From assembly GCA_913060505.1 (NCBI GenBank), contig CAJXRQ010000009.1, forward strand, positions 1-64,000: a DNA stretch of 64,000 nt, written 5' to 3'. The notes under the pieces are model-generated. The model did no database searches. It was not told where the DNA came from and saw only the letters and a program-made list of their open reading frames with translations. This DNA comes from an uncultured Desulfovibrio sp. GTDB taxonomy: Bacteria; Desulfobacterota; Desulfovibrionia; Desulfovibrionales; Desulfovibrionaceae. Both the position numbers and the translations under genes were made by a program. Below, one piece after another: positions 7,303-47,170 of the stretch (the stretch's first letter is position 1; the number at the start of each line of letters is the position of its first letter).

Positions 7303-7304
7303 GG

Positions 7305-11955: not shown

Positions 11956-11969
11956 AAAAAGAGGCAGAC

Positions 11970-12578: not shown

Positions 12579-12589
12579 GCTTACGCCCT

Positions 12590-12622
12590 GAAAAAACAAA
12601 GCCGCAGAAAAAATCCGCGGCC
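12590..12622 (-). terminator. Terminator of the psp operon
   Basis: Read on the minus strand, GCCGCGGA...CTGCGGC forms a stem with an ATTTTT loop and is followed by TTTGTTTTTT. It sits 25 bp after the pspC stop codon. There is no T-run on the plus side. Confidence 0.7.
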
Positions 12623-12647
12623 TGCTTACTGCGTGGGCAATTGTTCA

Positions 12648-13333: not shown

Positions 13334-13409
13334 GGGACCTCCTCCTTGATGCATGGTGAACGAGCCATAGCATAACGCACTCAGACCGTGCCCACAAATC
13401 GTTTCATGG

Positions 13410-30344: not shown

Positions 30345-31384
30345 AAAAAGTAATTACTCTGGCAATCGCCTTGCTGCTGGCCCTGGCCACGGCCGGGCTT
30401 GTTCGAGCCGAATCCTCCCGCACTGTATACGTATACAACTGGACGGAATACATCCCGGAAGGCGTTATCGACCAGTTCACCAAGGAAACCGGCATCAAGG
30501 TGGTTTACGCCACCTACGAAAGCAATGAGGCCATGTATGCCAAGCTCAAGGTGATGAATTCCAGGGGATTCGACGTCATCTTCCCCTCCAGCTACTTTGT
30601 GAACAAGATGGGCAAAGAAGGCATGCTTTTGCCCATAGACAAATCAAAACTTAATAATTTCAAGAATATGGATTCAAGGCATTTGAATCACAGCTTTGAC
30701 CCCGGCAACAAATATTCCGTGCCGTACACTTGGGGTGGAACCGGCATTCTGGCCAACCCGGAACGGGTCGGTCCCATGCCGGAAAAATGGTCGGACCTCT
30801 GGGATTCCCGGTTCAAGGGAACCCTTCTTTTGCAGGACGACCTGCGCGAAGTGTTCGGAATGGCGCTCAAAAAAAGAGGTTATTCCCTGAACGACACAAA
30901 CCCGGACCATATCCGGGAAGCATACGAAGACCTTGTCGCGCTCATGCCTTCCGTGCGCACATTCAACTCTGACAGTCCCAAAATTCCGTTTCTGAACGAG
31001 GAAGTGGCTGCAGGCATGATCTGGAACGGTGAAGCACACGTTGCCATGGGCGAACTGGACACGCTTCAGTTCGTCTGGCCGGAAGAAGGCGCCATCTTCT
31101 GGATGGACTGCATGTGTATCCCTGCCGGAGCCAGAAATGTGGACGAGGCATACGCGTTCATCAACTTCCTGTTGCGGCCAGAAGTCGCGGCCACCATGGT
31201 CAGGGAATGGGGTTATGCCACTCCGAACATGGCTGCAATCCCGCTACTGGATGAAGCCACTCGCAACGATCCCGCGATATTCCCGCCCATTTCGGTTATG
31301 GAAAAATCGGAATTCCAAAACGACATTGGCGAAGCCATCACCCTATACGAAAAATACTGGAATAAACTCAAAGCCAACCAGTAA
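30341..31384 (+). CDS. potD: Spermidine/putrescine-binding periplasmic protein
   Basis: 347 residues starting with GTG that overlaps the potC stop (GTGA). Signal peptide to about LVRAESS. The mature protein begins VYVYNWTEYIPEGVIDQF, the polyamine-binding protein signature, with FDVIFPSSYFVNKM and VPYTWGGTGI further on. It delivers polyamine to PotBC. A strong terminator follows, closing the operon. Confidence 0.95.
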   Translation: MKKVITLAIALLLALATAGLVRAESSRTVYVYNWTEYIPEGVIDQFTKETGIKVVYATYESNEAMYAKLKVMNSRGFDVIFPSSYFVNKMGKEGMLLPIDKSKLNNFKNMDSRHLNHSFDPGNKYSVPYTWGGTGILANPERVGPMPEKWSDLWDSRFKGTLLLQDDLREVFGMALKKRGYSLNDTNPDHIREAYEDLVALMPSVRTFNSDSPKIPFLNEEVAAGMIWNGEAHVAMGELDTLQFVWPEEGAIFWMDCMCIPAGARNVDEAYAFINFLLRPEVAATMVREWGYATPNMAAIPLLDEATRNDPAIFPPISVMEKSEFQNDIGEAITLYEKYWNKLKANQ

Positions 31385-32260: not shown

Positions 32261-33751
32261 GTGTTGAAAAGCCAAGATCGACAACGTCCCAGCCTGCGCA
32301 GCAAACTCGGTTTGCTGCTGGTCTGCCTGATCGTGACCACCACTGTGGGCGCGGGGCTGACCCTGCGATACGTATATACTACCCAGTCCCTGTTTGAGCG
32401 CATGCAGGACAGGGATATCGCCGGTCTCATAGCAGCACAGGGGCTTGAAGAAGAACTGGTGGCCCAAAAAGGCTTTGTGACATACTACTTCCTGAACAAT
32501 GATCCGGAGTGGCTTTCCGATCTGGAAAAGCACCACGAGGCGTTTGAAGGCTGGCTGCACAAAGCCCGGCAGTTCGAACATCTTGAGCAAGGCCGCGCCA
32601 CCCTCAATGAAATCGAATCCAATTATCTGCGCTTCACGCATGAACGCAGCACGGTCATTGAACTCTATCAGCAGGGAGACCGGGGCAAAGGGGCAAAACG
32701 CCATTGGAAAGTGCGCGACCAATTCAACACGCTCTACGCCCTGTGCGAAAAATACAAACAGCAGCATGAGCAAAGCATAGCTACCGAAGGAAAGCGCTAT
32801 CGCCACGAGGCACGAATCCTGACCATTCTGTCGCTCATGGCCATGCCGCTGACCATCGCACTGGCACTGTGGCTGGGCTACATCCTGTTCCGCCGAATCC
32901 TTGACCCGCTCCGGCGCCTTGCCCACGGGGAAGGCGCCGCCCCGAACCTGAGCGGCGAGGTTGGAGAACTTCAGGAACGCCTGTCCACGCTGATAGATGA
33001 TGTGGACGAGGCACACGTCATGTTGCAGGAGAGCCGCCAGCAAGTGGCCCAGGCCGAAAAGATGGCGCTGGTCGGAAAACTCGCGGCCGGTGTTGCCCAT
33101 TCGATCCGCAACCCGCTCACGTCAGTCAAAATGCGCCTGTTTTCGCTGGAACGCAGCCTAACTCTTTCCCCGGTACAGCAGGAAGATTTCGAAGTCATTT
33201 CGGAAGAGATCAGGCATCTGGATACCATTATCCGCAACTTCCTGGAATTTTCACGCCCACCAAAACTCAGAATGCAACGGGTATCTCCGTCCGAGGTGGT
33301 GGACATGACCCTGCAACTGCTCCGGCACCGTCTGGATTCCTGCGGCGTGGAAGTCCGGCGAGATACGGATACGTCGCTGCCCGAGGTGGACGCGGACCCC
33401 GAACAGCTCAAGGAGGTGCTGGTCAACCTCATCGTCAATGCCTGCGACGCCATGCCGGACGGTGGATTGATCACCATCAGGGAAACCATGGGAGACCTGG
33501 GAGGCCGTGAACACATGGCCGTCATCACGGTTGCGGACAACGGGCCGGGCATTCCCCCCTCGGTGCGTGACGACATATTCAAACCCTTCTTCTCCACCAA
33601 GGAGGAAGGAACAGGACTGGGGCTGTCCATCGCCAACCGCATCATGTCCGAGCACGGCGGCTGGATTCACCTCAAATCCTCAGGACAAGGCGGCACCACA
33701 TTCCTGCTGGCCCTGCCCCACAAGGAGAGCGCACGATGGCACAGATCCTGA
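32261..33751 (+). CDS. NtrB-type sensor histidine kinase
   Basis: 496 residues, GTG start after GGGGG. Spans at about 16-36 and 187-209 enclose a helical periplasmic sensor (four-helix-bundle type, about 40-185). The dimerisation domain has His280 in LAAGVAHSIRNPLTSVK, the ATPase box is FSTKEEGTGLGLSIA and the N-box is NLIVNACDA. The class matches NtrB/ZraS-like kinases. Its stop overlaps the sigma-54 regulator by 16 bp, its certain partner. The ligand is unknown. Confidence 0.93.
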   Translation: MLKSQDRQRPSLRSKLGLLLVCLIVTTTVGAGLTLRYVYTTQSLFERMQDRDIAGLIAAQGLEEELVAQKGFVTYYFLNNDPEWLSDLEKHHEAFEGWLHKARQFEHLEQGRATLNEIESNYLRFTHERSTVIELYQQGDRGKGAKRHWKVRDQFNTLYALCEKYKQQHEQSIATEGKRYRHEARILTILSLMAMPLTIALALWLGYILFRRILDPLRRLAHGEGAAPNLSGEVGELQERLSTLIDDVDEAHVMLQESRQQVAQAEKMALVGKLAAGVAHSIRNPLTSVKMRLFSLERSLTLSPVQQEDFEVISEEIRHLDTIIRNFLEFSRPPKLRMQRVSPSEVVDMTLQLLRHRLDSCGVEVRRDTDTSLPEVDADPEQLKEVLVNLIVNACDAMPDGGLITIRETMGDLGGREHMAVITVADNGPGIPPSVRDDIFKPFFSTKEEGTGLGLSIANRIMSEHGGWIHLKSSGQGGTTFLLALPHKESARWHRS

Positions 33752-35157
33752 TCGTTGACGATGACGCCCAGCTCCGCAAAAGCTTTGTAAAAATGCTGGC
33801 GCAGGAGGGCCATGAAATCCGCACGGCCAATTCCGGGGAATCCGGCATCACCGCAGTGCGGGAGTCTGCGCCGGACCTTCTGGTCATGGACGTGCGCATG
33901 CCCGGTATGACCGGGTTGGAAGCCTTTGAACAAATTCGCAAGATCGATCAGCGGATGCCCGTGATCATCATGACCGCATACAGCACCACGGAAACCGCCA
34001 TCGAGGCCACCAAGATGGGGGCGTTCGACTATATCCTCAAACCCTTTGAGCCAGCCGAAGTGCTGACTCTCATTGAACAGGCGCTGGAGGCCGGACGGCT
34101 GGCCCGCGAACATGTGGAAATGGGACCGGAACCGGAAGCGGCACCGGCCGGAGCTTTGGTCGGCAACAGCCGGGCCATGAACGAAATATACAAGGCCATC
34201 GGCAAGGCTGCGCCCACGGATGCACTGGTGCTTATCCGTGGCGAATCCGGCACCGGCAAAGAGCTGGTGGCGAGGGCCGTGTATCAGCACAGTCTCCGTG
34301 CAGACAAACCGTTTACGGTCATCAACTGCGTGGCCATTCCCGACACGCTGCTGGAGTCCGAGCTGTTCGGGTACGAACGGGGTGCGTTCACCGGTGCCAA
34401 CTCTCGGCGCGTGGGAAAAATCGAGCAGGCGGACGGTGGCACGGTTTTTCTGGATGAGATCGGCGACATGCCTTTGAACATTCAGGCCAAGATACTGCGT
34501 CTGTTGCAGGAGAAAAAAATCGAACGACTTGGAGGACGCGACCCTATCCCGCTGGACGTTCGCATTATCGCAGCGACCAACCGTGATCTGGAAGAAGCCG
34601 TAACCAGGGGAAAATTCCGCGAAGACCTTTACTACCGCCTCAAAGTGGTGACCATTACCCTGCCTCCCCTGCGGGAGCGCATTGAAGACGTGCCGCCGCT
34701 GGCAGAGTATTTCCTGAACCGCCTCAGTGTGGAGATGGATCTGCCCAATCCGGGATTGGCTGAAGATGCCCGGAAATACCTGCAATCCTACCCGTGGCCC
34801 GGCAACGTGCGCGAACTCTCCAATACAATGCAAAAGGCGCTTATCTTCAACCGCGGTGTTGCCCTGAACAGGGAACAACTGTCCCAGGCCGTGGATGTGG
34901 AACCGGACAGTCCTGTGGAACGGGATGAAAACGACAAGGCATTTTGCGCGCGCGTTCGCAAGGCCCTTGCGGAAAACGCAGGCAAAAACGCCTTTGAAAT
35001 GCTTATGAACAAGGCTGGCAAACTGATCATCAGCGAGGCACTGGCAATAACCGACGGCAACCGGACCCGGGCTGCCAAACTGCTGGGCATGTCACGGCCG
35101 ACTCTTGCCGCGCGTATCGAAAAATACGGCATCAAAACCAGCACAAAGGTTGAATGA
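33736..35157 (+). CDS. NtrC-family sigma-54 response regulator
   Basis: 473 residues. The receiver (1-120) has acidic residues VDDD and phospho-acceptor Asp52 (VMDVRMPGM). The AAA+ domain has Walker A GESGTGKE, the loop GAFTGA and Walker B VFLDEI, with [10 protein letters not shown] near its end. The C-terminal Fis-type helix-turn-helix contains [20 protein letters not shown]. All residues for sigma-54 activation are intact. It is a candidate activator of the sigma-54 promoters at 36157 and 44291. Confidence 0.95.
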
Positions 35158-35161: not shown

Positions 35162-35941
35162 CTATAAAACGTTGTCCTCGCCGTCCCCTGATTCATACAG
35201 TGTAAGTCCTACGCCAACGAAAATCAGCAGGATCATGACATAGATCAGCCAGATGAAATCATTCCGCCTGTGCTCCGGCGTGAGTGCGTCATCGGTTTGG
35301 ACATAGGTATTCCATGCGGCAAGGGAAATGCCGAGTACGGAACTATCCGCAGCCGGCAGTTGCCGCAGGGACTGCTGGTCGAAGAATCCGCGCAAGACCA
35401 GATACCCTGACCCGGTGTAGATATACCATGTACGTATGACCATTCCACCCGGCTCCGCAGTCACCGTAAACATCCAGCGGTGCTTGTCGAATTCCACGTT
35501 GCGCACGTCCTCGGCGCTGCCCGAGGCGTGAAAAACTTTGGAATCCAGCAACCTTTCCACTCTTCCCAACGCCAACCCGTTAAACTGCTCGATCTGAGCC
35601 TTGGGAATGCGTCCGCTTTGCCCTGCTCCCACCATGATAAACGGATATTCAAAATCTTCCCCGCCCATTCTGAATCCATCCAGCACCTTGAGGTCGGAAC
35701 CATTAATGGATCCTGAAAGAACCGAGGCCATGGAATCATTGAGCGCGGCGATTTCCCCCTTACCCAGACGCACCCAGCCGTCCGGCAGAATCATGCGGAA
35801 CCCCAGCATGCGATTTTCCACAAGCTGCTCCGCATGGGCTGCGGACACCCAAAAGATCGAAAACAACAGGGTCGCGCACAGCAACAGCCAGCTCATGCCC
35901 CTTCGCCACTGATCCGTCCGAATGCTCATTTTCTGCTGCAT
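35162..35941 (-). CDS. Secreted protein with C-terminal membrane anchor, layout as at 31448-32140
   Basis: 259 residues from an ATG at 35941 (35929 is also possible). Signal peptide to about SAAHAEQL. The mature domain starts LGFRMILPDGWVRLGKGE and contains VRNVEFDKHRWMFTVTAEP. A C-terminal span (WLIYVMILLIFVGVGLTLY) is followed by an acidic tail. No family name can be given. It converges with the NtrC-like gene, 4 bp apart. It may serve as a membrane-tethered sensor or effector of that two-component system (inference from position). Confidence 0.7.
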   Translation of the reverse strand: MQQKMSIRTDQWRRGMSWLLLCATLLFSIFWVSAAHAEQLVENRMLGFRMILPDGWVRLGKGEIAALNDSMASVLSGSINGSDLKVLDGFRMGGEDFEYPFIMVGAGQSGRIPKAQIEQFNGLALGRVERLLDSKVFHASGSAEDVRNVEFDKHRWMFTVTAEPGGMVIRTWYIYTGSGYLVLRGFFDQQSLRQLPAADSSVLGISLAAWNTYVQTDDALTPEHRRNDFIWLIYVMILLIFVGVGLTLYESGDGEDNVL

Positions 35942-36156
35942 GGCTCCCCCCAGGTTAGAGAGTTCACACCTCATAACAACCATACACTGTCTGGAACAGC
36001 CATGCAAACACACCGATACCGGATGTGACGACTTTTTTTACACCTTGACAAAATAACTGACGGCACCGGCTTATCCCGACCTTTGCAGCTCGCAATGCTT
36101 AAAAATTAAACCCAACAATTCAAAGCAAATACAAAATCAACGCGACAATATCCTCG

Positions 36157-36172
36157 TGGCACACTCCTTGCC
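36157..36172 (+). promoter_or_regulatory. Sigma-54 promoter of the 36202-44202 gene cluster
   Basis: TGGCACACTCCTTGCC matches the -24/-12 consensus in every key position, with GG and GC exactly 10 bases apart. The expected start site is about 20 bases before the first ATG. Two NtrC-type regulators encoded close by (33736 and 45830) are candidate activators. Confidence 0.88.
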
Positions 36173-36201
36173 TAGTATCAGACAAACCATGGAACAAATC
36201 G

Positions 36202-36621
36202 ATGAAAGGACCGCAAGTCACCATACTCGTTGCCGAGCGCAACCCCCACATGCGCGACTTCATTTGTCGGGAGCTGGCAAGACGCAACTTGCTGGTTTCC
36301 GGTGCGAAGAGCAGCGACGAAGTCATGGCCGCTCTGGACAGCCCCCGCCCCCCGGACCTTGTTGTGTTGGCGGTTAACACCATCAACACCGGGTCCGTGG
36401 GGCTTCTGGAGCGTGTGACCGCACAGTTTCCCAAAACTCCTGTGGTGCTGCATGCCTTTCTTGAAGACTTGAATGGAAATCCCGCGTTGGGGCGGGTTCA
36501 GGGCGTAGTGGAAAAAAGCGGCAACCCCGAGGAACTGATCGCCACGGTCATAAAGGTGCTTGAACGCAAATTTCCCCGCCTGATGAACGACACCGGAACG
36601 CAGGAGGCTCCCGATGCCTGA
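36202..36621 (+). CDS. Degenerate receiver-domain protein (pseudo-receiver)
   Basis: 139 residues with a response-regulator fold pattern: VTILVAERNPHMRDF at the start, LVVLAVNT at the third strand and a lysine near residue 104 (VVEKSG). The phosphoacceptor aspartate is replaced by Ala57 and the usual acidic pair after strand 1 by Ala-Glu. It therefore cannot be phosphorylated in the normal way, and may act as a decoy or binding partner for the kinase. The gene is the first after the sigma-54 promoter and overlaps the kinase start by 8 bp. Confidence 0.8.
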   Translation: MKGPQVTILVAERNPHMRDFICRELARRNLLVSGAKSSDEVMAALDSPRPPDLVVLAVNTINTGSVGLLERVTAQFPKTPVVLHAFLEDLNGNPALGRVQGVVEKSGNPEELIATVIKVLERKFPRLMNDTGTQEAPDA

Positions 36622-38335
36622 CCGCCACTACTACACGTCCCTGCACCGCAGCATGGTCGCCACGGTCATACTGGTATCGCTGATGCCCATGGCGCTGATC
36701 ACCCTGATCGGCGGATACCAGTATACAGCCGCATACAAGGCCAAAGTGCTGGCGCATCTCGGAGAGATCGTCCGCAAGCACGAGCAGAACATAGACACCT
36801 ACCTGCTCGAAAAGGTCGCCGAGATTCGGGTGCTGGCAGATAACATGGGGGTCTCCTGCTTCAGGGACGAAAACAAGCTTCAACGCTTGCACCAAACGCT
36901 CATGGAACGCCATGGCGGCGATTTCGTGGACCTCGGGCTGGTCAATGAGCATGGCATGCAGGTGGCCTATTCCGGCCCGTTCCGGCTGGGGGAGGCCGAT
37001 TACGCGGATGCGGAATGGTTCCGTGAAGTCATGAAACGCAAGGTTTATATTTCCGATGTATTCCTTGGCCTGCGCGGTGTCCCACACTTCATCATCGCCG
37101 TACAATTCCACTCCGAAGGCCAGCGATGGATTCTGCGCACCACCATTGACTTCGTAGCCTTCAACCGGCTGGTGGAAAACATCCGAATAGGTCAAACAGG
37201 TCTGGCGTTCATCATGAACAGAAACGGCGACTTCCAAACCACGCCGCGTCTGGACCTCAACGCCGAAATTCCGTTTTTGAAGCGGCTGCTGGATGAAACC
37301 GAAAACAAAAACGGGCCCCGTCTGGCGGACGGGCTTGTGGCTTCACGCATTGCCGAAAACCCGGCCACAGGACGCGAAACCATCTATCTGAGCACTCCCC
37401 TCAAACAAGGCGACTGGCGACTTGTGTACCAACAGGACGCAACGGACGCCTTTTCCGAACTGGTCCAGACCCGCAATCTGGTCCTGTTCGTACTGCTTTT
37501 GGGAACCATCGCCATCACCTTCATGGCCGTGTTGCTTTCCCGCCGCATGATCAAACGCATCAAGGCATCGGACAGGGAAAAGGAAATGATGAACGAACAG
37601 GTCATTGAAGCCGGGCGTCTTGCCTCGCTGGGCGAGTTGGCCGCAGGCATTGCGCATGAAATCAACAACCCTGTCGCCATCATGGTTGAAGAAGCCGGAT
37701 GGGTTCAGGACATGCTTGAAGAGGGAATGGAAAAGGACGGCAATCTGGATGAAACCCGGCGTGCCCTCGCCCAGATCCGTACCCAGGGTTCCCGCTGTCG
37801 CGAAATCACCCACAAGCTGCTCTCGTTCGCACGCATGATCGACCCGACCATCGTGGAAATGCAGTTGAACGACATGGTTGAGGAAATCGTGGGGTTGAGT
37901 TCGCAACGCACACGCTTCGCCAATGTGCAGGTGGAGACCGTACTGGCCGAGGATTTGCCCACCATAGCGGCCAGTCCCTCGGAAATGCAGCAGGTGTTGC
38001 TCAATCTGGTCAACAATGCCGTGGACGCCATGGAAAAGGATGGCGGGACCATGACCATCACCACCAAACGGGACCGCGACGACGTACTCATGACCGTGGC
38101 CGACACAGGATGCGGTATTCCCAAGGCCAACCTGCAACGATTGTTCGACCCCTTCTTCACCACCAAACCGGTGGGCAAGGGGACAGGGCTGGGACTGTCC
38201 ATCATTTACGGCATCATCAACAAGATGAAGGGAGAGATATCCGTGAACAGCGCCGTTGATATGGGAACGGCCTTTACCGTGCGCATTCCTTCGTCATCCG
38301 CAAACCAGAAGGAAGAGCGGCAAGGAAATGAATAG
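36614..38335 (+). CDS. Cache-domain sensor histidine kinase
   Basis: 573 residues. Spans at about 15-35 and 288-310 enclose a double-Cache periplasmic sensor (VDLGLVNEHGMQVAYSGPF and DYADAEWFREV are dCache features). There is no PAS domain. The phosphoacceptor is His in LGELAAGIAHEINNPVAI, of the NtrB/DctB type, with ATPase boxes NLVNNAVDAM, DTGCGIP and GTGLGLSI. Two stand-alone receivers follow and are the likely phosphate acceptors. Confidence 0.93.
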   Translation: MPDRHYYTSLHRSMVATVILVSLMPMALITLIGGYQYTAAYKAKVLAHLGEIVRKHEQNIDTYLLEKVAEIRVLADNMGVSCFRDENKLQRLHQTLMERHGGDFVDLGLVNEHGMQVAYSGPFRLGEADYADAEWFREVMKRKVYISDVFLGLRGVPHFIIAVQFHSEGQRWILRTTIDFVAFNRLVENIRIGQTGLAFIMNRNGDFQTTPRLDLNAEIPFLKRLLDETENKNGPRLADGLVASRIAENPATGRETIYLSTPLKQGDWRLVYQQDATDAFSELVQTRNLVLFVLLLGTIAITFMAVLLSRRMIKRIKASDREKEMMNEQVIEAGRLASLGELAAGIAHEINNPVAIMVEEAGWVQDMLEEGMEKDGNLDETRRALAQIRTQGSRCREITHKLLSFARMIDPTIVEMQLNDMVEEIVGLSSQRTRFANVQVETVLAEDLPTIAASPSEMQQVLLNLVNNAVDAMEKDGGTMTITTKRDRDDVLMTVADTGCGIPKANLQRLFDPFFTTKPVGKGTGLGLSIIYGIINKMKGEISVNSAVDMGTAFTVRIPSSSANQKEERQGNE

Positions 38336-38371
38336 GGCCGACCAGAAATGAACGCGACAGGGGGGAAAGCC

Positions 38372-38743
38372 ATGAGCGACAAAGCGACCAGAGTGCTGTT
38401 GGTGGATGACGAAACCGGATTCACCGACGTCATGTGCAAACGCCTTTCACGGCGAAACATGTCCGTGCGCACTGCTGGGGGCGGGTCCGAGGCCATCCAG
38501 ATACTGCGCAACGAGGATTTCGACGTGGCCCTTCTTGACCTGAAGATGGAGGACATGAGCGGCATCGAGGTTTTGCAGATATTCAAGAAGATGGTGCCGG
38601 AAATGCCGGTGATCATGCTCACCGGGCACGGCTCCGAGGAAGCTGCAAGGGAAGGCATGCAACAGGGCGCCTTCGATTACCTTCTCAAGCCCTGTGACTT
38701 CGAGCAGTTGCTGGCCAAAATCCGGTCCGCGACCAAGCAGTAG
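38372..38743 (+). CDS. Single-domain response regulator
   Basis: 123 residues from the ATG at 38372, preceded by GGGGGG; an ATG at 38348 is less well supported. The receiver is complete: VDDE, Asp56 (LLDLKMEDM), Thr in MLTGHG and Lys in YLLKPCD. There is no output domain, so it acts by binding a partner or as a relay element. It is a tandem paralogue of the next gene, sharing KRLSRR and EGMQQGAF. Confidence 0.93.
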   Translation: MSDKATRVLLVDDETGFTDVMCKRLSRRNMSVRTAGGGSEAIQILRNEDFDVALLDLKMEDMSGIEVLQIFKKMVPEMPVIMLTGHGSEEAAREGMQQGAFDYLLKPCDFEQLLAKIRSATKQ

Positions 38744-38755
38744 GAGGGGATTGCC

Positions 38756-39172
38756 ATGAGACCTGTCAACCTGCTCATTGTGGACGACGAACCGGACTTT
38801 GTGCGCACCATGGAAAAACGTCTTTCAAGACGGTCCATGAATGTTGTGACGGCAGTCTCCGGGGCCGAAGCCCTGAAGCTGCTGGACAATTTTTCCGCGG
38901 ATGTGGTGGTGCTTGACGTGAAGATGCCGGAAATGGACGGTATCCAGACGCTCAAGGCCATCAGGCGAAGGCATCCGCTGATAGAGGTGATCATGCTCAC
39001 CGGGCACGCCAGCATGGATGCGGCAGTGGAGGGCATGCAACAGGGCGCGTTTCATTATTTGATGAAACCTGCCGAGATCAACGAGCTCGTCTTCAAGATT
39101 GAAGATGCGTTCAAACGAAAAACGCTTCGGGAGGAACGGGTCCTGGAGGAACATTCGAACAACGCCCGCTGA
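38756..39172 (+). CDS. Single-domain response regulator, tandem copy
   Basis: 138 residues. Receiver with VDDE, Asp54 (VLDVKMPEM), MLTGHA and YLMKPAE, plus a charged C-terminal helix (KRKTLREERVLEEH). It starts 12 bp after the previous receiver gene and shares KRLSRRSMNV and EGMQQGAF with it. It is probably the second acceptor for the upstream kinase. Confidence 0.93.
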   Translation: MRPVNLLIVDDEPDFVRTMEKRLSRRSMNVVTAVSGAEALKLLDNFSADVVVLDVKMPEMDGIQTLKAIRRRHPLIEVIMLTGHASMDAAVEGMQQGAFHYLMKPAEINELVFKIEDAFKRKTLREERVLEEHSNNAR

Positions 39173-39224
39173 ACGGGCATGGCACTTGTGCTAACCAATC
39201 ATACAAGAAACGAGGACGAGACTC

Positions 39225-40481
39225 ATGAACATCGCACGAAGAATTTACGGGACCATGCTTCACGCGGCAAGAGCCCACGCCCAGTGGGATCTGGAAGTTT
39301 CGCGCAGCATACTGGGCAACAAGAAGAAGTTGCTCCTGCTGGTCATTCTGGCACTCCCCGCCATACTGGTGGCAACGGGTATGGCGGCAGACCTGAACCT
39401 ACCGGATATTCTGGGCGGGAAAAAGGCCTATACTCCGGCATTCTACACGCCGGACATATTCCTGGCCTCAATACTCATCGGCCTGTGCGCAGGCCTGATC
39501 ACCGGCTGCATCGGCGCCGGGGGCGGATTCATCATCACCCCGGCCCTCATGAGCGCGGGCATCAAGGGTATTCTGGCCGTGGGCACCGACCTGTTCCACA
39601 TTTTTGCCAAGGCAATCATGGGCACAGCCGTGCACAAGAAGCTTGGTAACGTATCCGTGGGACTGGCCGTAGCCTTTCTGGTGGGCTCCGGTGTAGGCGT
39701 CACCGGAGGTGGCGTGATCAACCGCTTCATCTACGAATTGAATCCAGTGCTCTCAGACACCTTTATCAGCTTCATCTACGTCATCCTGCTCGGCTTCCTC
39801 GGTACCTACGCCATGATCGACTTCCTGCGGCTTCGCAAGGCAGGAGGCGGAGACGCCCATGGCGGTGGCGGCGGAGGCGGCGGACTGCCCGCGGCTTTGC
39901 AGCGGGCCAAGATTCCGCCCATGATCGGCTTTGACGAAGACCTGGTTCCCGGCGGAAAGAAGATCTCCGCATGGTTCGTCGCCCTTTGCGGCGCGGTTGT
40001 CGGATTCATGGCCGCCATCATGGGCGTGGGCGGAGGATTCCTGACCTTCCCCATGTTCGTATACATTCTGGGCGTCAGTTCCTTCACCACCGTTGGTACG
40101 GACATCCTGCAAATCATCTTCACGGCCGGTTACGCCAGCATCTCCCAGTACGCGATATACGGCTTCATTTTCTACACCCTGGCCATGGGCATGCTGCTGG
40201 GTTCCCTGTTGGGCATCCAGATAGGCGCCCTGACCACCAAGCTGGTTCCGGGCATCTACATCCGCGGTTTCTATGCCATTGCCATTCTCGCAGGTTTTTT
40301 GAACAGACTGTTCGCACTGCCTAGCAAGCTATCGGACATGAAGCTGATCGCGGTGAATCCGAGCGTTTCGTCCATATGCACCCAAATCGGCAACTGGACC
40401 TTCTTCATCTGTGTCGGAATATTCGGCGTATGGGTCATCGGCACGTTCCTGACAAAGATCAACCAGCTCAGGGAGGACTAG
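39225..40481 (+). CDS. TauE/SafE-family membrane permease
   Basis: 418 residues with about nine hydrophobic spans. The first family repeat is seen in IGLCAGLITGCIGAGGGFIITPALMSAG (key pattern G-x-G-G-G-F) and the second in FMAAIMGVGGGFLTFPMF. A long N-terminal stretch precedes the first repeat. The cytoplasmic loop near 205-220 is Gly/His-rich (DAHGGGGGGGGLP). Known relatives export sulfite, sulfoacetate or other small organosulfur anions; the substrate here is unknown. Four bases separate it from the next membrane gene. Confidence 0.87.
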   Translation: MNIARRIYGTMLHAARAHAQWDLEVSRSILGNKKKLLLLVILALPAILVATGMAADLNLPDILGGKKAYTPAFYTPDIFLASILIGLCAGLITGCIGAGGGFIITPALMSAGIKGILAVGTDLFHIFAKAIMGTAVHKKLGNVSVGLAVAFLVGSGVGVTGGGVINRFIYELNPVLSDTFISFIYVILLGFLGTYAMIDFLRLRKAGGGDAHGGGGGGGGLPAALQRAKIPPMIGFDEDLVPGGKKISAWFVALCGAVVGFMAAIMGVGGGFLTFPMFVYILGVSSFTTVGTDILQIIFTAGYASISQYAIYGFIFYTLAMGMLLGSLLGIQIGALTTKLVPGIYIRGFYAIAILAGFLNRLFALPSKLSDMKLIAVNPSVSSICTQIGNWTFFICVGIFGVWVIGTFLTKINQLRED

Positions 40482-40484
40482 GAC

Positions 40485-41198
40485 ATGCTCATTCGAGACA
40501 AGAGACACTTCACGTGGGGCATTACGCTCATGATAGGCTTCCTGATTGTGCTGGCGTACATGTTCACCCCGAACTTCGGCGGCGTAAACGCATTCCATGC
40601 CTCGGACGCGGAGTTCAACGCCATATCCAAGGGATCGACCAACTATATCCCGTCCATCAAGAACGAGGCCAAGCAGTTCGAGGGACAACCCTTTGACGTA
40701 CTCATCTTTGAAAACGGGTCCAAGATACTGCGTCCGCTGGCAATGATGTTGCTCCAACCCGCAGGGATGACGGTTGAGGAAACCGACAACGGCCTGCGAG
40801 TGCAAGGCGATCTCGGCGCTCTCATGGCGGCAGCCCTTGAAGATTCGGACACCATGTTCAAGAACGACGGCGACACCATGAAGTCCCGCTACGGCATCAA
40901 GCCCCGCGAGGCCATGTTTGTATGGTGGAAGCTGCTCAAGGACGTCAAGCTGCATCTGGACAAACAAAAGATGTTCAAGCCTGCAACCTTCATCAACAAG
41001 AAGATCATCAAGCGCGCCGTGGAGGTGGGATACAACTACTTCGGCATCGAAGCCCGCAACGCTTCTGACGAATGGGAAAAGATTACCTTTGCGCTCATCT
41101 TCTACGTGGTCTACACATTGTGGTTCGGATACTCGATATTCTTCCTGTTCGAGGGACTGGGCCTTCAGATGACCGCGGGCAGGAAAAAGGAAATGTAA
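40485..41198 (+). CDS. Membrane protein paired with the TauE-type permease, unknown function
   Basis: 237 residues. One span near the N-terminus (about 11-27) and one near the C-terminus (about 203-225) bracket a soluble central region with FDVLIFENGSKILRPLAMML and a lysine-rich stretch. I do not know the family. The very close spacing with the permease suggests an accessory subunit. Confidence 0.75.
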   Translation: MLIRDKRHFTWGITLMIGFLIVLAYMFTPNFGGVNAFHASDAEFNAISKGSTNYIPSIKNEAKQFEGQPFDVLIFENGSKILRPLAMMLLQPAGMTVEETDNGLRVQGDLGALMAAALEDSDTMFKNDGDTMKSRYGIKPREAMFVWWKLLKDVKLHLDKQKMFKPATFINKKIIKRAVEVGYNYFGIEARNASDEWEKITFALIFYVVYTLWFGYSIFFLFEGLGLQMTAGRKKEM

Positions 41199-41221
41199 CC
41201 TGTAAAAAACGGGCCGCAAGC

Positions 41222-43858
41222 ATGGGATTTATGGACTGGTTGCCGTTCTTCGGGAAACGGAACAAGCAAGACCGTTGCGAAGACGCGCAGCAGTTCAAAA
41301 ATCTGCTTGCGGCCCGGTATCATCATTTCAAGCTGCTTCTCAGCGCGGACGGAGAAAACCACGAAATCATCACGGATATCGAGGAAGCCCTGCGCGGGGA
41401 AAGAATTTACGGTATGCACTTCGTGCGTGCGGCCTGCACGCGCAGCACCACCGCAGTTTTCCAGATGATCCGGCATATCAACGAGCTGGCACCCGGAAAA
41501 TATGAAAGGCTCTTCGAACAATTTGATGAAATCCGCGCCAAAATAGAACCGCACATCGCACACCGCAATGTGGAGCGGGGCGGCCCGTTGGTCATGAACC
41601 TTGCTGACGTCGGCATCAAAGACGCACTGCAATGCGGTTCCAAAATGGCCATGCTTTCCGAGGCCGGAATGGCTCTCGGCATTGCTGTCCCGTCCGGGTT
41701 CGTTATCACGGCCGAAGCCTTTCGTCTGTTCATGGCCGAAACCGGTCTGGACCGGGAAACCGAACGTATCCTGCAAGCCATGGACAAGGATGATCCGGAT
41801 GCCGTGAATCAGACTATGTCCAAGGTCATGCAAATGATTTTGAACGCCCCTCTGCCCGGGCAACTGGAAACGGCGATTATCCGGGCGCATGACCAACTGG
41901 AACAGGAAGTGGGACAGGCCCCGAGAATGGCCCTGCGCTCCAGCGCACTTGGGGAAGATGGTCAAAAGACTTCCTTTGCCGGGCAGCATCGCACCGTGCT
42001 CAATGTCACTCGCGAAGCCCTGCTTCATTCCTACAAGGAAGTGCTGGCCTCAAAATACTCCATGCAAGCGTTGGCCTACCGTTTGAGTCGGGGGATTCGG
42101 GATGAAGATGTGGCCATGTGCGTCGGTTGCATGGAAATGGTGGACGCCAGTTGTGGCGGAGTCGCCTATTCCACGAATCCTGTCGATCCGGAAGACGACA
42201 CCGTAAGCATACATTCAGTCTGGGGGTTGCCCAAAGGCGTTGTGGACGGTTCTGCCGAAACTGATATCTTCCGTGTAAGCCGCTCCACGCTGGAGATGGT
42301 GGAAGTTTCTGTCGCCGCCAAACCGGAGAAATTCGTTTGCCGCCAGAGCGAAGGAACCTGCCGAGAACCCAACCCCGAGGACGCCGGTACGCCTTCCCTG
42401 TCCCCCGAGCAGGCCAGGGAAGTAGCGAAGGCAGCCATACAGGCGCAACAACATTTCGGATGGCCGCAGGACATGGAATGGGCCATCGACAGGAACGACA
42501 ATCTGCGCCTTCTGCAATGTCGCCCTCTGCAGTTGCCGGAAACCGAACACCTCGTTCCGGGCAAAAACGGATTTTTCCACCCCACGCCACCGCCACTAGC
42601 CCGCGGTGGGACCACGGCCTCGGGAGGCGTCAGCATTGGCCCGGCTTTCGTGGTACGCAAGGAAGCCGACGTACTGTCCTTCCCGGACAATGCCGTGCTG
42701 GTACTTGCCGCAGCGCTCCCGCGACGGGCTTCACTGCTGCATCGCGCGGCAGCCGTAATCACGGAACGGGGCGGCGCCGCCGGCCATCTGGCCAACGTGG
42801 CCCGGGAATTCGGTATCCCGGCACTTTTCGGTATCCGCGGCATCATGAACCAATTGCAGAACAACGACATGATCACCGTGGATGCCGACATGCGCGCCGT
42901 GTATCCCGGAAAAATCGACACCCTGCTGTCCCGAAAACACAATCGCAAAGATCTCATGCGCGGCAGCCCGGTGCACAAAGCGCTGGCCGGGGCCGCACGT
43001 CACATTATCCGGCTCCGGTTGCTGGACCCGGATTCACCGGAATTCCGTCCCCGCAACTGCAAGACCATGCACGACATCGTACGCTTCTGCCACGAAACGG
43101 CAGTGCGGGAAATGTTCGACTTCGGCATCAGCGCCAGCTACCAGAAAGCTGCCTGCCGCCAGCTCATCTGTGATGTGCCCAAACAATTCTGGGTACTGAA
43201 TCTTGAAGACGGATTTGATGAAGCAGGCCAGCAACGAAATGATGCCTGCGTCATGGTCTCGGAAATACAGTCCGTGCCCATGCGCGCTCTGTGGGAAGGC
43301 ATGACGGCTGTTCCCTGGGAAGGGCCTCCTCCGGTCAACGCCCGCGGATTTCTTTCGGTCATGTTCGAGGCTACCATGAATCCGAACCTGACGGCGGACC
43401 GTCCAACGGACATGGCCATGAAGAATTACTTCATCATTTCCAAGAATTTCTGCAGTCTCCAATCGCGCTTTGGATTCCACTTCTGCGGAGCCGAGGCCGT
43501 TGTGGGAGATCGTCCCAGTGAAAACTACGCCCGATTCCACTTCAAAGGCGGCGCAGCCAATCTGGAGAGGCGAATCCTGCGTGCACGGTTCATCAAAGAA
43601 ATACTGGAAGAATACGATTTCCGCGTCAAATTGCGGCAGGACAACCTCCGCGCCCGTCTGGAAGGCTTCGGCCCCACGACCATGCTCAACCGTCTTCGCA
43701 TTCTCGGATACATGATCATCCACACCCGCCAGTTGGACATGATCATGACCGATGCAGATGCCGTCGCACGGCTAAAAAACAAAATACTGGAAGACCTTGC
43801 AGTCATAAGCACAGACCCGCAACAGGAAATGGATACTCGTTCTCCTGAAAATAAGTGA
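41222..43858 (+). CDS. PEP-synthase-like phosphotransferase without the C-terminal PEP/pyruvate barrel
   Basis: 878 residues from the ATG at 41222. An N-terminal region of about 130 residues, unlike known domains, is followed by the ATP-grasp domain of PPDK/PEP synthase (about 145-430; ALRSSALGEDGQKTSFAGQH, VAYSTNPVDP, LRLLQCRPL). The swivelling phosphohistidine domain follows with His522 in ERGGAAGHLANVAREFGIPA. The C-terminal 300 residues show no PEP/pyruvate-binding barrel signature. The layout is reminiscent of rifampicin phosphotransferase, which also uses the histidine domain without the barrel. The substrate is unknown. It follows the TauE-type permease pair by 23 bp. Confidence 0.8.
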   Translation: MGFMDWLPFFGKRNKQDRCEDAQQFKNLLAARYHHFKLLLSADGENHEIITDIEEALRGERIYGMHFVRAACTRSTTAVFQMIRHINELAPGKYERLFEQFDEIRAKIEPHIAHRNVERGGPLVMNLADVGIKDALQCGSKMAMLSEAGMALGIAVPSGFVITAEAFRLFMAETGLDRETERILQAMDKDDPDAVNQTMSKVMQMILNAPLPGQLETAIIRAHDQLEQEVGQAPRMALRSSALGEDGQKTSFAGQHRTVLNVTREALLHSYKEVLASKYSMQALAYRLSRGIRDEDVAMCVGCMEMVDASCGGVAYSTNPVDPEDDTVSIHSVWGLPKGVVDGSAETDIFRVSRSTLEMVEVSVAAKPEKFVCRQSEGTCREPNPEDAGTPSLSPEQAREVAKAAIQAQQHFGWPQDMEWAIDRNDNLRLLQCRPLQLPETEHLVPGKNGFFHPTPPPLARGGTTASGGVSIGPAFVVRKEADVLSFPDNAVLVLAAALPRRASLLHRAAAVITERGGAAGHLANVAREFGIPALFGIRGIMNQLQNNDMITVDADMRAVYPGKIDTLLSRKHNRKDLMRGSPVHKALAGAARHIIRLRLLDPDSPEFRPRNCKTMHDIVRFCHETAVREMFDFGISASYQKAACRQLICDVPKQFWVLNLEDGFDEAGQQRNDACVMVSEIQSVPMRALWEGMTAVPWEGPPPVNARGFLSVMFEATMNPNLTADRPTDMAMKNYFIISKNFCSLQSRFGFHFCGAEAVVGDRPSENYARFHFKGGAANLERRILRARFIKEILEEYDFRVKLRQDNLRARLEGFGPTTMLNRLRILGYMIIHTRQLDMIMTDADAVARLKNKILEDLAVISTDPQQEMDTRSPENK

Positions 43859-43929
43859 CAAAAAACCGCACATGCCCCATTATGAAATATAATATGAAAA
43901 ATGGTGCGTCACTATCGTAGGAGGAACTC

Positions 43930-44202
43930 ATGAAGAGCTTGCATTGCATCGTGAAAGGGACAGTTCAGGGCGGCAACTTTCAGGGCTGGCTGCAAAAGGA
44001 AGCGGAACAACTGAACATCAACGGATGGGTACGCAATATTGCAGACAGTGAAGCCGAAATCATGGCTCAAGGCGATCCCACTAATTTGAAGGAATTGGCG
44101 GAACTCATCCGCAATAAAGCCCCGCTTCCGGATGTGGAAGACATCCAGTGCGAAGTGGTCGACTACGACAAGACCTTCGAAGGATTTGAAATGCGCGGCT
44201 GA
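43930..44202 (+). CDS. Acylphosphatase-fold protein lacking the catalytic arginine
   Basis: 90 residues, standard length. Alignment by eye to acylphosphatases is clear: the phosphate-loop motif usually VQGVGFR reads VQGGNFQ, and the catalytic asparagine segment NGWVRN is kept. The essential arginine is therefore Gln. The enzyme is probably inactive on acyl phosphates or has altered activity. A strong GGAGG precedes the ATG. It follows the phosphotransferase gene by 71 bp and may be part of the same transcript. Confidence 0.8.
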   Translation: MKSLHCIVKGTVQGGNFQGWLQKEAEQLNINGWVRNIADSEAEIMAQGDPTNLKELAELIRNKAPLPDVEDIQCEVVDYDKTFEGFEMRG

Positions 44203-44306: not shown

Positions 44307-44387
44307 ATTATGTCGGGTTGCGGTCCGTTGCCTTTGCGTGGCTACCCCGGTATAGAGACTGCAGAAACAGCAAGCCGTGGAGCGCGC

Positions 44388-45809
44388 ATGAGAATCTTTC
44401 CGGCGATGAGCATTTCCGCAAAAATGCTTGTCTGGGCCATGTCCATCACTACCATTTTTTGCGTAACCACCGCGTACCTCGTCTATCAGATACGCAACGA
44501 GTCCGACCTGACGCGGGAAATCGCTTCCACCCGTTACGAAATCGGCCTTGCCGTCCAGCAAATGGAAGAACGGTTGGACAGTGTGCAGAACAACATCCGC
44601 CGGTTCAAGGCCCTTGGCGACGAAACCGCCGCCCGATTCATCGTGGAAGACCTGACCCGTTTTGGGGAAATACTTCGGGAAACCCTGAGCAGGCACCCGG
44701 AATATGCGCATGACTGGAAGCCTCTGACCGGCGAGTTCACCCTTCGCCTGACCAAGGGGGATTCTCCGGACGACGCATTTGCGGCCGACGCCACAATTCA
44801 ATACTGGCTCTCCATTCTTGCCGGAACCAGAAACGACAACCAACAGCGTATTTCCCTTGGGCTGGCCAGACTCAGGCGCGACAACGTCCATGCGTACCGC
44901 GTCGGTTTCTATGGGCTGATCATCTGCCTTTTGCTGGCCATTCCGGGCAGTGCCATGTTTGCATGGCGCATCAATGCGCATCTCGAATCCATCCGTTCTG
45001 GTCTCAGGGCGTTGGGGGAAGGTGAAACCCCTCCCCCGGTTCGGGTGGAATCCGGGGACGAACTGGAAGAGCTGGCCGACGCCTACAACGTCATGGCGGA
45101 ACAATTACGGCGTGAGGAGCGAATGCGCACGGACTTCATTTCCATGCTCAGCCATGAAATCAGAACCCCGCTGACATCCATCCGCGAGTCCGTGGACATG
45201 ATGGCCGACGGTGTTTTCGGACCTGTGAATGAACGCCAAACGCGCTTCTTGCGCATCGCGGAAAAGGAAACCGACCGCCTGGCCGAGCTGCTGCGCAGAC
45301 TCATGACCGTAACACGCATGGAAGCGGGAAACCCGACCCTGAACCGGCAACCCATGGATTGTTCAGGCCTGATCCGAACCACTCAGGAACGGCTCGAATC
45401 TTCGGCCATGGCAAAAAAAATCAAACTGGAATCCCGATTGCCGGAAGACGATGTTTACATATCGGCGGACACGGAAAACCTTCGGCAGGTACTCCTGAAC
45501 CTCGGAGGCAACGCCATCAAGTTTTCACCGGACGAAAGCACGGTGACATTCCGGCTCGACATGGCGGAGAACGGTGTCGTATTCAGTGTGGAGGATCAGG
45601 GGCCGGGCGTACCGGAAGCCGAACGGGAACTGATATTCAAAAAATACTACCGGGCCGAGGGTGTGCGCATGGACAAGGACGGCGCAGGACTGGGGCTGGC
45701 CATATGCCGCAAGATAGTGGAAGCGCACGGCGGACACATGTGGGTGGACTGCGGTATTGAAGACGGATGTGCCTTCCGCTTTTTCATCCCCTCGGAACTC
45801 CCGAATTGA
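44388..45809 (+). CDS. Sensor histidine kinase (HAMP, HisKA, HATPase)
   Basis: 473 residues from the ATG at 44388, which has GGAG 6 bases before it. Spans at about 11-31 and 166-188 enclose a small helical sensor of about 130 residues. A HAMP linker leads to the dimerisation domain with His in ISMLSHEIRTPLTS, and the ATPase boxes are NLGGNAIKF, DQGPGVP and DGAGLGLAI. It is the partner of the sigma-54 regulator that follows 20 bp later. Confidence 0.93.
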   Translation: MRIFPAMSISAKMLVWAMSITTIFCVTTAYLVYQIRNESDLTREIASTRYEIGLAVQQMEERLDSVQNNIRRFKALGDETAARFIVEDLTRFGEILRETLSRHPEYAHDWKPLTGEFTLRLTKGDSPDDAFAADATIQYWLSILAGTRNDNQQRISLGLARLRRDNVHAYRVGFYGLIICLLLAIPGSAMFAWRINAHLESIRSGLRALGEGETPPPVRVESGDELEELADAYNVMAEQLRREERMRTDFISMLSHEIRTPLTSIRESVDMMADGVFGPVNERQTRFLRIAEKETDRLAELLRRLMTVTRMEAGNPTLNRQPMDCSGLIRTTQERLESSAMAKKIKLESRLPEDDVYISADTENLRQVLLNLGGNAIKFSPDESTVTFRLDMAENGVVFSVEDQGPGVPEAERELIFKKYYRAEGVRMDKDGAGLGLAICRKIVEAHGGHMWVDCGIEDGCAFRFFIPSELPN

Positions 45810-45829
45810 ACCTTTCTCACGGAGAATTC

Positions 45830-47170
45830 ATGAATCAGAACGAAACTCCGGCCGTTGTCATGGCCGTTGACGACGACGAACATATCCTGACCGTGCTTGA
45901 GGCGCGGCTGGAAAACGCCGGTTACGAGCCTCTTTTGGCGGATTGTGCGGAAACCGCGCTGGAGATGCTGGCAGAAAACCGGGTGGACCTGATCATATCG
46001 GATGTAAAAATGCCCGGCATGGGGGGGCAGGCCCTGTTAGAGGAAGTCTCGCGCTCATGGCCGCACATTCCGGTCATCATGCTGACGGCCCACGGCTCCA
46101 TTCCCGATGCCGTCACTTCCATCCAGACCGGTGCGGCCGACTATGTCACCAAGCCGTTCGATGGCCACGCCCTGATGCAACGAATCGCGGCCATGCTTGA
46201 TAAAAGTCCGCAAAAAAAGAACGCCCCCGCTCCGAAACTCGGGAACAACTTCTGGGGCGGCCAGGCTCCGGCCATGAAAGATTTCATCGGACTGTTGACC
46301 CGGGTGGCCCCGGCCGAGGCAAACGTCCTTTTGCTGGGGGAATCCGGCACAGGCAAGGAATGCGCGGCCAGAATCATTCACGAGAACAGTCCGCGAGCAC
46401 AAGGCCCGCTCGTGGTGGTGGACTGCGGTTCCACGCAGCCCACCCTGCTGGAAAGCGAACTGTTCGGACACACCAAGGGATCCTTTACCCATGCGGTCAA
46501 GGATAAAAAAGGCCTTATCGAAGAAGCGGACGGCGGCACCCTGTTTCTGGATGAAATCGGCAATATTTCGCCGGAAATGCAAACCCGGCTGCTGCGCTTC
46601 CTGCAAGAACGCACCATACGCAGGGTTGGAGACAACCGGGAACGACAGGTCAACTGCCGAGTGGTTTCAGCTACCAACGCCGGGCTGCAGGATATGGTCC
46701 GTGACGGGGATTTCCGGGAAGACCTCTATTACAGACTCAAGGTCGTGACACTGCATATTCCTCCGCTGCGCCAACGCATGGAGGACGTGCCCTTGCTGGC
46801 CCGTAACTTTGCCGCGAAACTCTGCGAGGAGCAGGGACGCCCACCTGTGGAATTTTCGCAACAGGCCATGGAATGCATCATGGAACATCCGTGGCCCGGT
46901 AACGTTCGCGAATTGCAACACGCTGTGGAAGGCGCCCTGGTCTTTTGCACCGGCAATACCATAGCCCCGCAGGACTTGCAGCTGGAAGTGCTGGAAACGC
47001 CACACACAACCGACGATTCTCTCTCTCTGGAAGACAATGAACGCAAGGCCATCCTGCGCGCTCTGGAGCACTGCAACTGGGTCAAGAAGGCCGCTGCCGA
47101 TGAATTGGGCATCAGCCGCCGGGCCATCCATTACAAAATCAAAAAATACGACATCAGCGTACCGGAATAA
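45830..47170 (+). CDS. NtrC-family response regulator with altered GAFTGA loop
   Basis: 446 residues from the ATG at 45830 with ACGGAG upstream. The receiver is intact (DDDE, Asp58 in IISDVKMPGM). The AAA+ domain has Walker A GESGTGKE, Walker B LFLDEIG and a complete R-finger region. The sigma-54 contact loop at residues 217-222 reads GSFTHA instead of GAFTGA. A Fis-type helix-turn-helix ends the protein (KKAAADELGISRRAIHYK). The loop change raises doubt whether it can open sigma-54 complexes in the usual way. Confidence 0.93.
   Translation: MNQNETPAVVMAVDDDEHILTVLEARLENAGYEPLLADCAETALEMLAENRVDLIISDVKMPGMGGQALLEEVSRSWPHIPVIMLTAHGSIPDAVTSIQTGAADYVTKPFDGHALMQRIAAMLDKSPQKKNAPAPKLGNNFWGGQAPAMKDFIGLLTRVAPAEANVLLLGESGTGKECAARIIHENSPRAQGPLVVVDCGSTQPTLLESELFGHTKGSFTHAVKDKKGLIEEADGGTLFLDEIGNISPEMQTRLLRFLQERTIRRVGDNRERQVNCRVVSATNAGLQDMVRDGDFREDLYYRLKVVTLHIPPLRQRMEDVPLLARNFAAKLCEEQGRPPVEFSQQAMECIMEHPWPGNVRELQHAVEGALVFCTGNTIAPQDLQLEVLETPHTTDDSLSLEDNERKAILRALEHCNWVKKAAADELGISRRAIHYKIKKYDISVPE

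Follow-up and report, generated by a model that had tools for sequence, protein, structure and literature searches.

A TauE permease-partner pair and a phosphohistidine enzyme that co-occur with aprA: a candidate sulfur-oxyanion transport system in Desulfovibrionaceae

What might a bacterium do with a gene cluster that joins a phosphorelay, a TauE-type permease and a phosphotransferase without the usual phosphoenolpyruvate (PEP) barrel? We addressed this question for eight genes within a 64-kb stretch of DNA from an uncultured Desulfovibrio sp. (assembly GCA_913060505.1, contig CAJXRQ010000009.1, positions 1 to 64,000), the whole of which is referred to as the window. Comparison with related genomes leads to a tentative answer, to which we would give close to, though short of, an even chance: the cluster may encode a transport system under sigma-54 control that handles a sulfur oxyanion, sulfate being the most likely one, and serves dissimilatory sulfate respiration. 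Its elements are as follows.

36157-36171, plus strand: sigma-54 promoter TGGCACACTCCTTGC (TGGCAC-N5-TTGC), the only exact consensus match in the window
36202-36621, plus strand: degenerate receiver whose phospho-acceptor position is Ala (Response_reg match under the cut-off, E 0.0015; alignment with 25 homologues)
36614-38335, plus strand: membrane sensor kinase, dCache_1-HisKA-HATPase (Pfam)
38348-38743, plus strand: stand-alone receiver 1 (Response_reg, without output domain)
38756-39172, plus strand: stand-alone receiver 2 (Response_reg, without output domain)
39225-40481, plus strand: long TauE/TSUP permease (Pfam TauE, PF01925, 9.1e-33, residues 83-357)
40485-41198, plus strand: two-span partner, its spans separated by a domain of about 165 residues (no Pfam or NCBIfam family match)
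41222-43858, plus strand: phosphotransferase, here called PPDK-C (Pfam PPDK_N, PF01326, and PEP-utilizers mobile domain, PF00391)
43930-44202, plus strand: acylphosphatase-like protein, a probable passenger (Pfam Acylphosphatase, PF00708, 3.8e-21)

All eight reading frames are open and co-directional at these positions, and their spacing runs from an 8-bp overlap up to 71 bp, which bears out the tight packing reported in a preliminary description of this DNA. A profile scan of 84,980 named genomes returned 553 relatives of the two-span partner, and the locus counts below come from the best 80 of these 553. TauE lies directly upstream of the partner in 75 of 75 testable loci, and PPDK follows the pair immediately in 53 of 76, under a geometric rule that misses some genes that are present (e.g. 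in L079 and L134). In 49 of 65 loci a stand-alone receiver lies no more than 1.5 kb upstream of TauE, and a kinase like that of the window is linked in 23 of 49. The order activator, receiver-like protein, kinase, receivers, TauE, partner, PPDK is widespread in Desulfobacterota, with signalling genes gained and lost; in the window's own genus PPDK is sometimes located away from the pair (G091, G072), and a bare TauE-partner pair also occurs in metagenome-assembled genomes (MAGs) named Clostridia or Nitrospirae. Since the pair is constant while its neighbours vary, we regard the permease and its partner as the core of the system and the other genes as a control layer. The gene order is thus conserved in other Desulfovibrionaceae and in further Desulfobacterota lineages, permease, partner and phosphotransferase co-occur, and a strain-specific assembly of genes is rejected. 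Because reading frames were called with a simple greedy procedure, some neighbouring genes may have escaped notice.

Unusual forms of the pair were also seen. A MAG named Deltaproteobacteria (L092) carries tandem TauE-partner pairs, the two partner genes being 99.9 % identical in DNA. Distant homologues in four genomes of one genus (L147, L150, L151, L152) consist of a TauE-like gene and then a longer partner-like frame (385-527 residues), and these loci also hold a frame of about 311-315 residues and another of about 800 residues.

The distribution of the pair across genomes points towards sulfate respiration, for which aprA (APS reductase) served as the marker. In a family set of 99 genomes, 72 were scored as aprA-positive (70 over the curated cut-off, plus G000 and G014, where the gene is split at contig ends). 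The partner was matched in 64 of the 99, including one genome with a distant homologue only (G007), which was counted as lacking the pair; the pair is accordingly present in 63 of 72 aprA-positive versus 0 of 27 aprA-negative Desulfovibrionaceae. It is also absent from all 16 family genomes that have dsrA over the cut-off and no aprA. Because most aprA-negative family genomes are small (24 of 27 fall below 3 Mb), a phylum set of 297 genomes is the better control. Here 119 genomes were aprA-positive (116 over the cut-off, plus split genes in G000, G232 and G258), and the pair is found in 69 of these versus three of 178 aprA-negative genomes, namely G173 (partial aprA, counted as negative), G208 (76 % complete) and G290. 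The phosphotransferase follows the same distribution: its C-terminal domain (alignment A5) occurs in 101 of 119 aprA-positive versus 6 of 178 aprA-negative phylum genomes, and strong full-length PPDK matches (E below 1e-90) in 68 of 72 versus 0 of 27 family genomes. The plain PPDK_N domain is present in 295 of the 297 phylum genomes, and PPDK_N in general is rejected as a sulfate-linked trait.

Gene neighbourhoods carry the same association. In a MAG named Peptococcaceae, the pair is preceded by a run of genes on its own strand, namely aprA (926 bits), two HdrA-like genes that we take to be Qmo genes, HdrC- and HdrB-like genes, a kinase, a receiver and a Usp gene. After the pair comes a CBS gene, and about 9 kb further on, on the opposite strand, lies a Na+/sulfate symporter gene. 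A MAG named Clostridiales holds two Na_sulph_symp genes and a CitMHS gene within 6 kb of the pair. CitMHS/ArsB-type transporters were noted near the pair in two Clostridia MAGs (L101 12531-13976 and L108 17512-18951, minus strand), where their best NCBIfam match, below cut-off, is MamN, a magnetosome transporter.

The permease is of a long form, with homologues within the family at 60-81 % identity. The partner has predicted spans at about residues 10-28 and 200-225, and its positively charged ends, together with the span positions, suggest that the central domain faces outward, on the extracytoplasmic side. Its structure model is confident (pLDDT 95.2), and the fold returned no PDB match at E <= 0.001. 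This domain is probably a tethered capture or gating domain for the permease.

The structural analysis of PPDK-C describes an enzyme with a familiar front and an unfamiliar end. The AlphaFold model (mean pLDDT 87.0, pTM 0.80) comprises a helical N-terminus, an ATP-grasp domain, a swivelling phosphohistidine domain that carries His522 and, beginning near residue 583, a C-terminal domain. When the protein was compared with the PDB at the level of both sequence and fold, the matches were PEP synthase, rifampin phosphotransferase and PPDK, mostly within residues 121-590; residues 581-878 gave no Pfam match even at E 5 and nothing credible among PDB sequences. K141, R239, E419, Q432, R434 and His522 are invariant in 54 of 54 homologues, so the autophosphorylating part looks intact at the level of sequence, and the acceptor side appears to be new. 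In the same homologues, the invariant set of the C-terminal domain includes C613, D618, R621, H624, R749, H753, G776, G777, D807, R812, R836, Q837 and D839. The early view of a phosphotransferase with intact ATP-grasp and histidine sites and no PEP barrel agrees with the profile matches, which end before the barrel region. An ordinary PEP synthase is rejected, as the NCBIfam match scores 304.5 bits against a cut-off of 598 and ends at residue 573, and the barrel is missing.

PPDK-C genes recur beside anion-transporter genes. Four copies, that of the window among them, were found in this genome (81 % complete), all less than 5 kb (0.7-4.6 kb) from TauE (copies C9, C8 and C24) or a Na+/sulfate symporter gene (C16): C16 lies 1.3 kb from the symporter gene, C8 lies 4.6 kb from TauE, within the nitrate cluster discussed below, and C24 lies 0.8 kb from a TauE frame with one inner stop. 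A broader sample was drawn from the phylum list of PPDK-C matches, taking every third entry at ranks 42-99, with rank 98 in place of an overlapping rank 96. A TauE-family gene lies within 7 kb in 13 of these 20 regions versus 0 of 20 PEP synthase regions, which were hand-picked from the top rows of the PPDK_N list; the profile that ranks the PPDK-C list derives mostly from proteins linked to transporters, so this TauE share may be inflated. Eight of the shorter TauE proteins near PPDK-C, including that of the nitrate-cluster locus (L187), were checked by Pfam. Stand-alone receivers show a similar pattern, with one found within 3 kb on the same strand at 13 of 31 sampled PPDK-C genes (9 within 250 bp) versus 0 of 20 PEP synthase genes. 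PPDK-C matches reach up to eight per genome.

Several of these neighbourhoods have features of their own. Copy C24 belongs to a third TauE/PPDK-C cluster of this genome (L167), which also has an NtrC-type pair and a Usp protein; its TauE frame (C24:3984-5012) contains one inner TAA and may be decayed or misassembled. L153 (G000:C16:40000-59000) and L149 each combine PPDK-C with a nearby Na+/sulfate symporter gene and several kinases and receivers; L149 has a Yip1-domain protein and another TauE as well. Short-TauE or PPDK-C clusters with probably membrane-bound activators were seen in L145, L168 and L170-L172. In L145, L168, L170 and L172, PPDK-C lies beside large activators (860-898 residues in the three scanned) that have a Sigma54_activat domain and hints of HAMP or Cache and are probably membrane-bound.

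Control of the cluster by sigma-54 is supported by comparison with the relatives. One-mismatch sigma-54 sites occur in the window at chance level (9 found versus 7.2 expected), and the weight of the promoter therefore rests on conservation among relatives. Sixty named loci extend far enough upstream of the pair for this comparison, and 29 of them carry a TGGCAY-N5-TTGC site there on the coding strand. The upstream regions of these 60 loci hold 30 such sites on the plus strand and 4 on the minus strand, where about 0.75 would be expected per strand; downstream of the operon there are 9 and 1, respectively. A chance site is thus rejected. Terminator-like sites in the region occur in chance number (9 found versus 9.1 expected). 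The operon also has linked activator genes, which are listed here.

32261-33751, plus strand: histidine kinase of the upstream sigma-54 two-component pair (Pfam HisKA and HATPase_c)
33736-35157, plus strand: NtrC-type sigma-54 activator with receiver (Pfam Response_reg, Sigma54_activat and HTH_8)
44310-47170, plus strand: second, downstream kinase-activator pair (Pfam), of uncertain membership in the cluster

With an exact -24/-12 element, its conservation upstream and a linked activator gene, the locus has the two marks of a sigma-54-dependent operon, as the preliminary description had proposed from the promoter. From its position, the activator at 33736-35157 is the probable activator of the operon. 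A kinase-activator pair like that at 32261-35157 precedes the operon in, for example, L062-L067 and is absent in the nearest relative, L061; in several relatives the cluster as a unit therefore extends upstream to this pair. The second pair has strong homologues at the same place in L061 and weaker ones in L066. Between activator and promoter, a minus-strand frame (35162-36013) with a signal-like start belongs to no Pfam family; of the 80 loci, L061 alone has a homologue in that position. Just before the upstream pair lies an ABC transporter set (27627-31384) comprising an ATPase with TOBE, two permeases and an SBP_bac_8-type binding protein.

The end genes of the cluster fit the description given of them only in part. 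The first gene does encode a pseudo-receiver here, as it lacks the phospho-acceptor Asp, and so do 3 of 25 homologues (L062, L063 and L065); the other 22 keep this residue, and the loss is not a general feature. The acylphosphatase-like protein lacks its arginine, as had been noted; Gln stands in place of this catalytic residue of the VQGVxxR loop. It is linked in one of 63 testable relatives, L061, which shares the Arg-to-Gln change; we therefore regard it as a passenger and reject it as a functional part of the cluster. The two stand-alone receivers are made up of Response_reg alone and have no DNA-binding output, as first described. Pfam matched no Hpt protein among the eight cluster proteins, and His522 of PPDK-C might hypothetically be a member of the phosphorelay.

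The statement that no single known pathway uses this combination is not supported. A cluster linked to nitrate in D. vulgaris and D. alaskensis (DVU0251-DVU0245 / Dde_0597-0605) comprises TauE, a hypothetical protein, PtxB, a kinase, a receiver, a protein with PPDK_N and PEP-utilizers domains, and a phosphatase; this and the mutant data below are taken from the available part of Korte 2014 (PMC4001038). Like the window's cluster, it combines a TauE permease, a small membrane protein, a kinase, an output-less receiver and a PPDK_N plus PEP-utilizers protein, so that the set TauE, kinase, stand-alone receiver and PPDK-C is common to both. Adding 100 mM nitrate made no difference to the growth of transposon mutants in DVU0251 (TauE), DVU0250, DVU0247 (receiver) and DVU0246 (PPDK), and the authors proposed that the cluster is a leaky thiosulfate transporter (PMC4001038). 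Orthology to DVU2958 and DVU0246 is presumed here from gene order and annotation.

The present genome has its own nitrate-cluster paralogue (L187, G000:C8:80000-98000), with the published genes in the published order at 3637-13570: TauE (371 residues), a 200-residue membrane protein, a Phosphonate-bd protein, a kinase, a receiver (119 residues), PPDK-C and a dual-specificity phosphatase. Its PPDK-C belongs to the family of the window's enzyme (656 bits). A frame before TauE (13118-13570, minus strand) resembles a 4Fe-4S protein in its cysteine pattern. TauE comes first in L187, with receiver and PPDK downstream, and the mutant phenotypes would thus not be simple polarity on TauE. By analogy, receiver and PPDK seem to be needed for the transport phenotype, either for permease activity or for permease expression. 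The preliminary description had suggested that the relay acts directly on the transporter or the phosphotransferase. This is supported indirectly, as the nitrate-cluster receiver and phosphotransferase mutants behave like the permease mutant and receivers lie near PPDK-C genes; that the control is direct is our inference.

Taken together, these data can be arranged into the following model. The upstream kinase-activator pair would turn on transcription of the operon, and the long permease and two-span partner would form the transporter. The Cache kinase would detect an external ligand and phosphorylate the stand-alone receivers, which would in turn act on the transporter or on PPDK-C. PPDK-C would phosphorylate its own His522 with ATP; either the phosphoryl group or a conformational change would then be relayed to some target, within the transporter or close to it, and so tune the transporter. 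A bolder version, which we consider doubtful, makes PPDK-C a dedicated phosphohistidine switch of sulfate respiration that gates oxyanion transporters of unrelated families: with receivers reporting outside supply, it would gate TSUP with the partner, TSUP with PtxB, and DASS. The ATP-grasp/His chemistry of PPDK-C connects ATP with AMP and phosphate. A main source of AMP and pyrophosphate in these cells is sulfate activation (Sat, APS reductase), and the load on this activation could therefore be reflected in how far His522 is phosphorylated.

A number of observations weigh against sulfate transport under such control. The aprA co-occurrence tables and their p-values ignore phylogeny; 50 of 119 aprA-positive phylum genomes lack the pair. 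Among the 16 genomes behind the named pair loci, 12 are over the aprA cut-off and two have fragments, and no aprA was found in the other two, both Nitrospirae MAGs (L130, L139). The pair stands without a nearby PPDK-C in five Clostridia or Nitrospirae loci (L101, L108, L111, L130 and L139). By the seeds used, 7 of 20 sampled PPDK-C regions have no TauE or DASS gene (two of these, L197 and L204, have kinase, receiver and PPDK-C in a row), and any kinase or receiver match within 7 kb is found in 17 of 20 PPDK-C regions versus 10 of 20 controls. The nitrate-cluster evidence is an analogy, drawn from a paralogous module with another TauE and with PtxB for the partner. Within it, the DVU0245 mutant is not nitrate resistant, pooled and isolated mutant data disagree for DVU0250, and the mutant in the kinase DVU0248, annotated as a pseudogene, has little or no advantage (PMC4001038). 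Sulfate-transporter or TauE terms gave no text match in those G20 and DvH genetics papers that were searched.

The main rival to sulfate import is export: sulfite, or another reduced sulfur compound, that builds up when APS reductase works faster than sulfite reductase would leave the cell through the permease, with the relay and PPDK-C tuning this safety valve. APS reductase makes sulfite, so a sulfite exporter would give the same aprA co-occurrence; it would also be absent from sulfite-only reducers, as seen, and the permease family is itself named Sulfite exporter TauE/SafE. The related nitrate-cluster TauE nevertheless looks like an anion entry route, its loss protecting from external nitrate, as suggested by the authors in the available part of PMC4001038. 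Together with the Na+/sulfate symporter genes near the pair in the Clostridiales MAG, this leads us to regard export as unlikely. The use of thiosulfate or sulfonate does not require APS reductase, and for this reason the near-restriction of the pair to aprA-positive genomes, with none of the dsrA-positive, aprA-negative family genomes having it, fits sulfate better than the import of another sulfur anion of this kind. We rate such import as rather improbable; it draws on the leaky thiosulfate transporter suggested for the paralogous nitrate cluster, for which unpublished mild thiosulfate defects are cited (PMC4001038, as available).

A further reading concerns PPDK-C rather than the substrate. 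It could be a metabolic enzyme whose C-terminal domain serves to phosphorylate a small molecule, the transporter importing this molecule or its precursor and the receivers regulating something else. Its closest solved relatives, PEP synthase and rifampin phosphotransferase, would agree with this, and the invariant C613, D618, R621, H624, R749, H753 and G776-G777 could form an active site. However, the genes lie beside unrelated transporter families (TSUP, DASS) and stand-alone receivers, with up to eight matches per genome, and PPDK-C therefore looks more like an accessory controller than the enzyme of one pathway; we judge the metabolic role to be quite unlikely. It is very improbable, in our estimate, that the association with sulfate respiration is indirect and the genes are part of a large environmental gene set of free-living sulfate reducers. 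The small size of most aprA-negative family genomes and the clustering of the contrast by descent speak for this reading, but the phylum contrast covers many large aprA-negative genomes and the C-terminal domain still separates them, and the Peptococcaceae MAG has the pair in synteny with aprA.

Sulfate import by the pair, tuned by PPDK-C, would bear on a recognized gap. According to the available text of Marietou 2018 (PMC5840216), no study had identified the sulfate uptake proteins of sulfate reducers. In D. vulgaris, growth on sulfate persists in a strain that lacks three annotated permeases (PMC7531388, as available). A permease-partner pair and a PPDK-C that track aprA are a testable lead on the control of this uptake. 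Annotations that were scattered (TauE 'sulfite exporter', 'PEP synthase', orphan receivers) come together in a single, testable system. The phenotype of the nitrate cluster, so far unexplained and of relevance to the control of souring with nitrate, gains a concrete model. Should PPDK-C indeed read AMP and pyrophosphate from sulfate activation, this would be a new regulatory principle and a new way of tying the uptake of a respiratory substrate directly to its activation.

An association of a TSUP transporter, two-component genes and a PPDK-like protein has been seen before, as a phenotype without a mechanism. In the literature searched, with most subscription journals outside its scope, we found no account of the present gene combination; the partner, the C-terminal domain family, its near-restriction to aprA-positive genomes, and its recurrence beside TSUP and DASS appear to be new within it. 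The locus tags of the nitrate cluster turned up in two papers of that literature, one of them PMC3431258. The available part of Kazakov 2015 (PMC4641369) counts nine D. vulgaris transport operons under sigma-54 whose transporters belong to the TSUP/PSE families and whose substrates are unknown, and shows that the activator DVU2956 binds upstream of DVU2957. In Marietou 2018, a highly conserved TSUP clade B (reference sequences DVU2958, Adeg_0175 and Dret_2118) is reported from 25 of 44 sulfate reducers in six phyla, a share similar to that of the window-type pair (69 of 119 aprA-positive genomes), and in two species TSUP proteins were the only sulfate-transporter candidates found; the text available makes no mention of a partner or phosphotransferase (PMC5840216). 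We suspect that the window's permease belongs to this clade.

The DASS and SulP sulfate-transporter clusters of Desulfobacteraceae (PMC11887813, 2025) likewise place sulfate-type transporters beside Cache-domain kinases and response regulators; they differ from the window in their transporter families and WalR-type regulators, and the searched text, with figures and supplements outside it, contains no pyruvate phosphate dikinase or TauE. The nitrate cluster shares more components, but its TauE is different and shorter, and it has a PtxB-type periplasmic protein and an unrelated-looking 200-residue membrane protein where the window has the two-span partner; it also has a dual-specificity phosphatase and an sCache/PAS kinase, compared with the acylphosphatase and dCache kinase of the window. 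Neither a PtxB-type protein nor a dual-specificity phosphatase is among the window's eight proteins, and both are present in the paralogue elsewhere in this genome, so the window cluster is rejected as the nitrate cluster proper. PPDK-C, finally, shares its ATP-grasp and phosphohistidine domains with PEP synthase (2ols) and rifampin phosphotransferase (5hv1); unlike these, it has neither a PEP barrel nor a rifampin domain, and carries instead an unmatched C-terminal domain and an extra N-terminal helical region.

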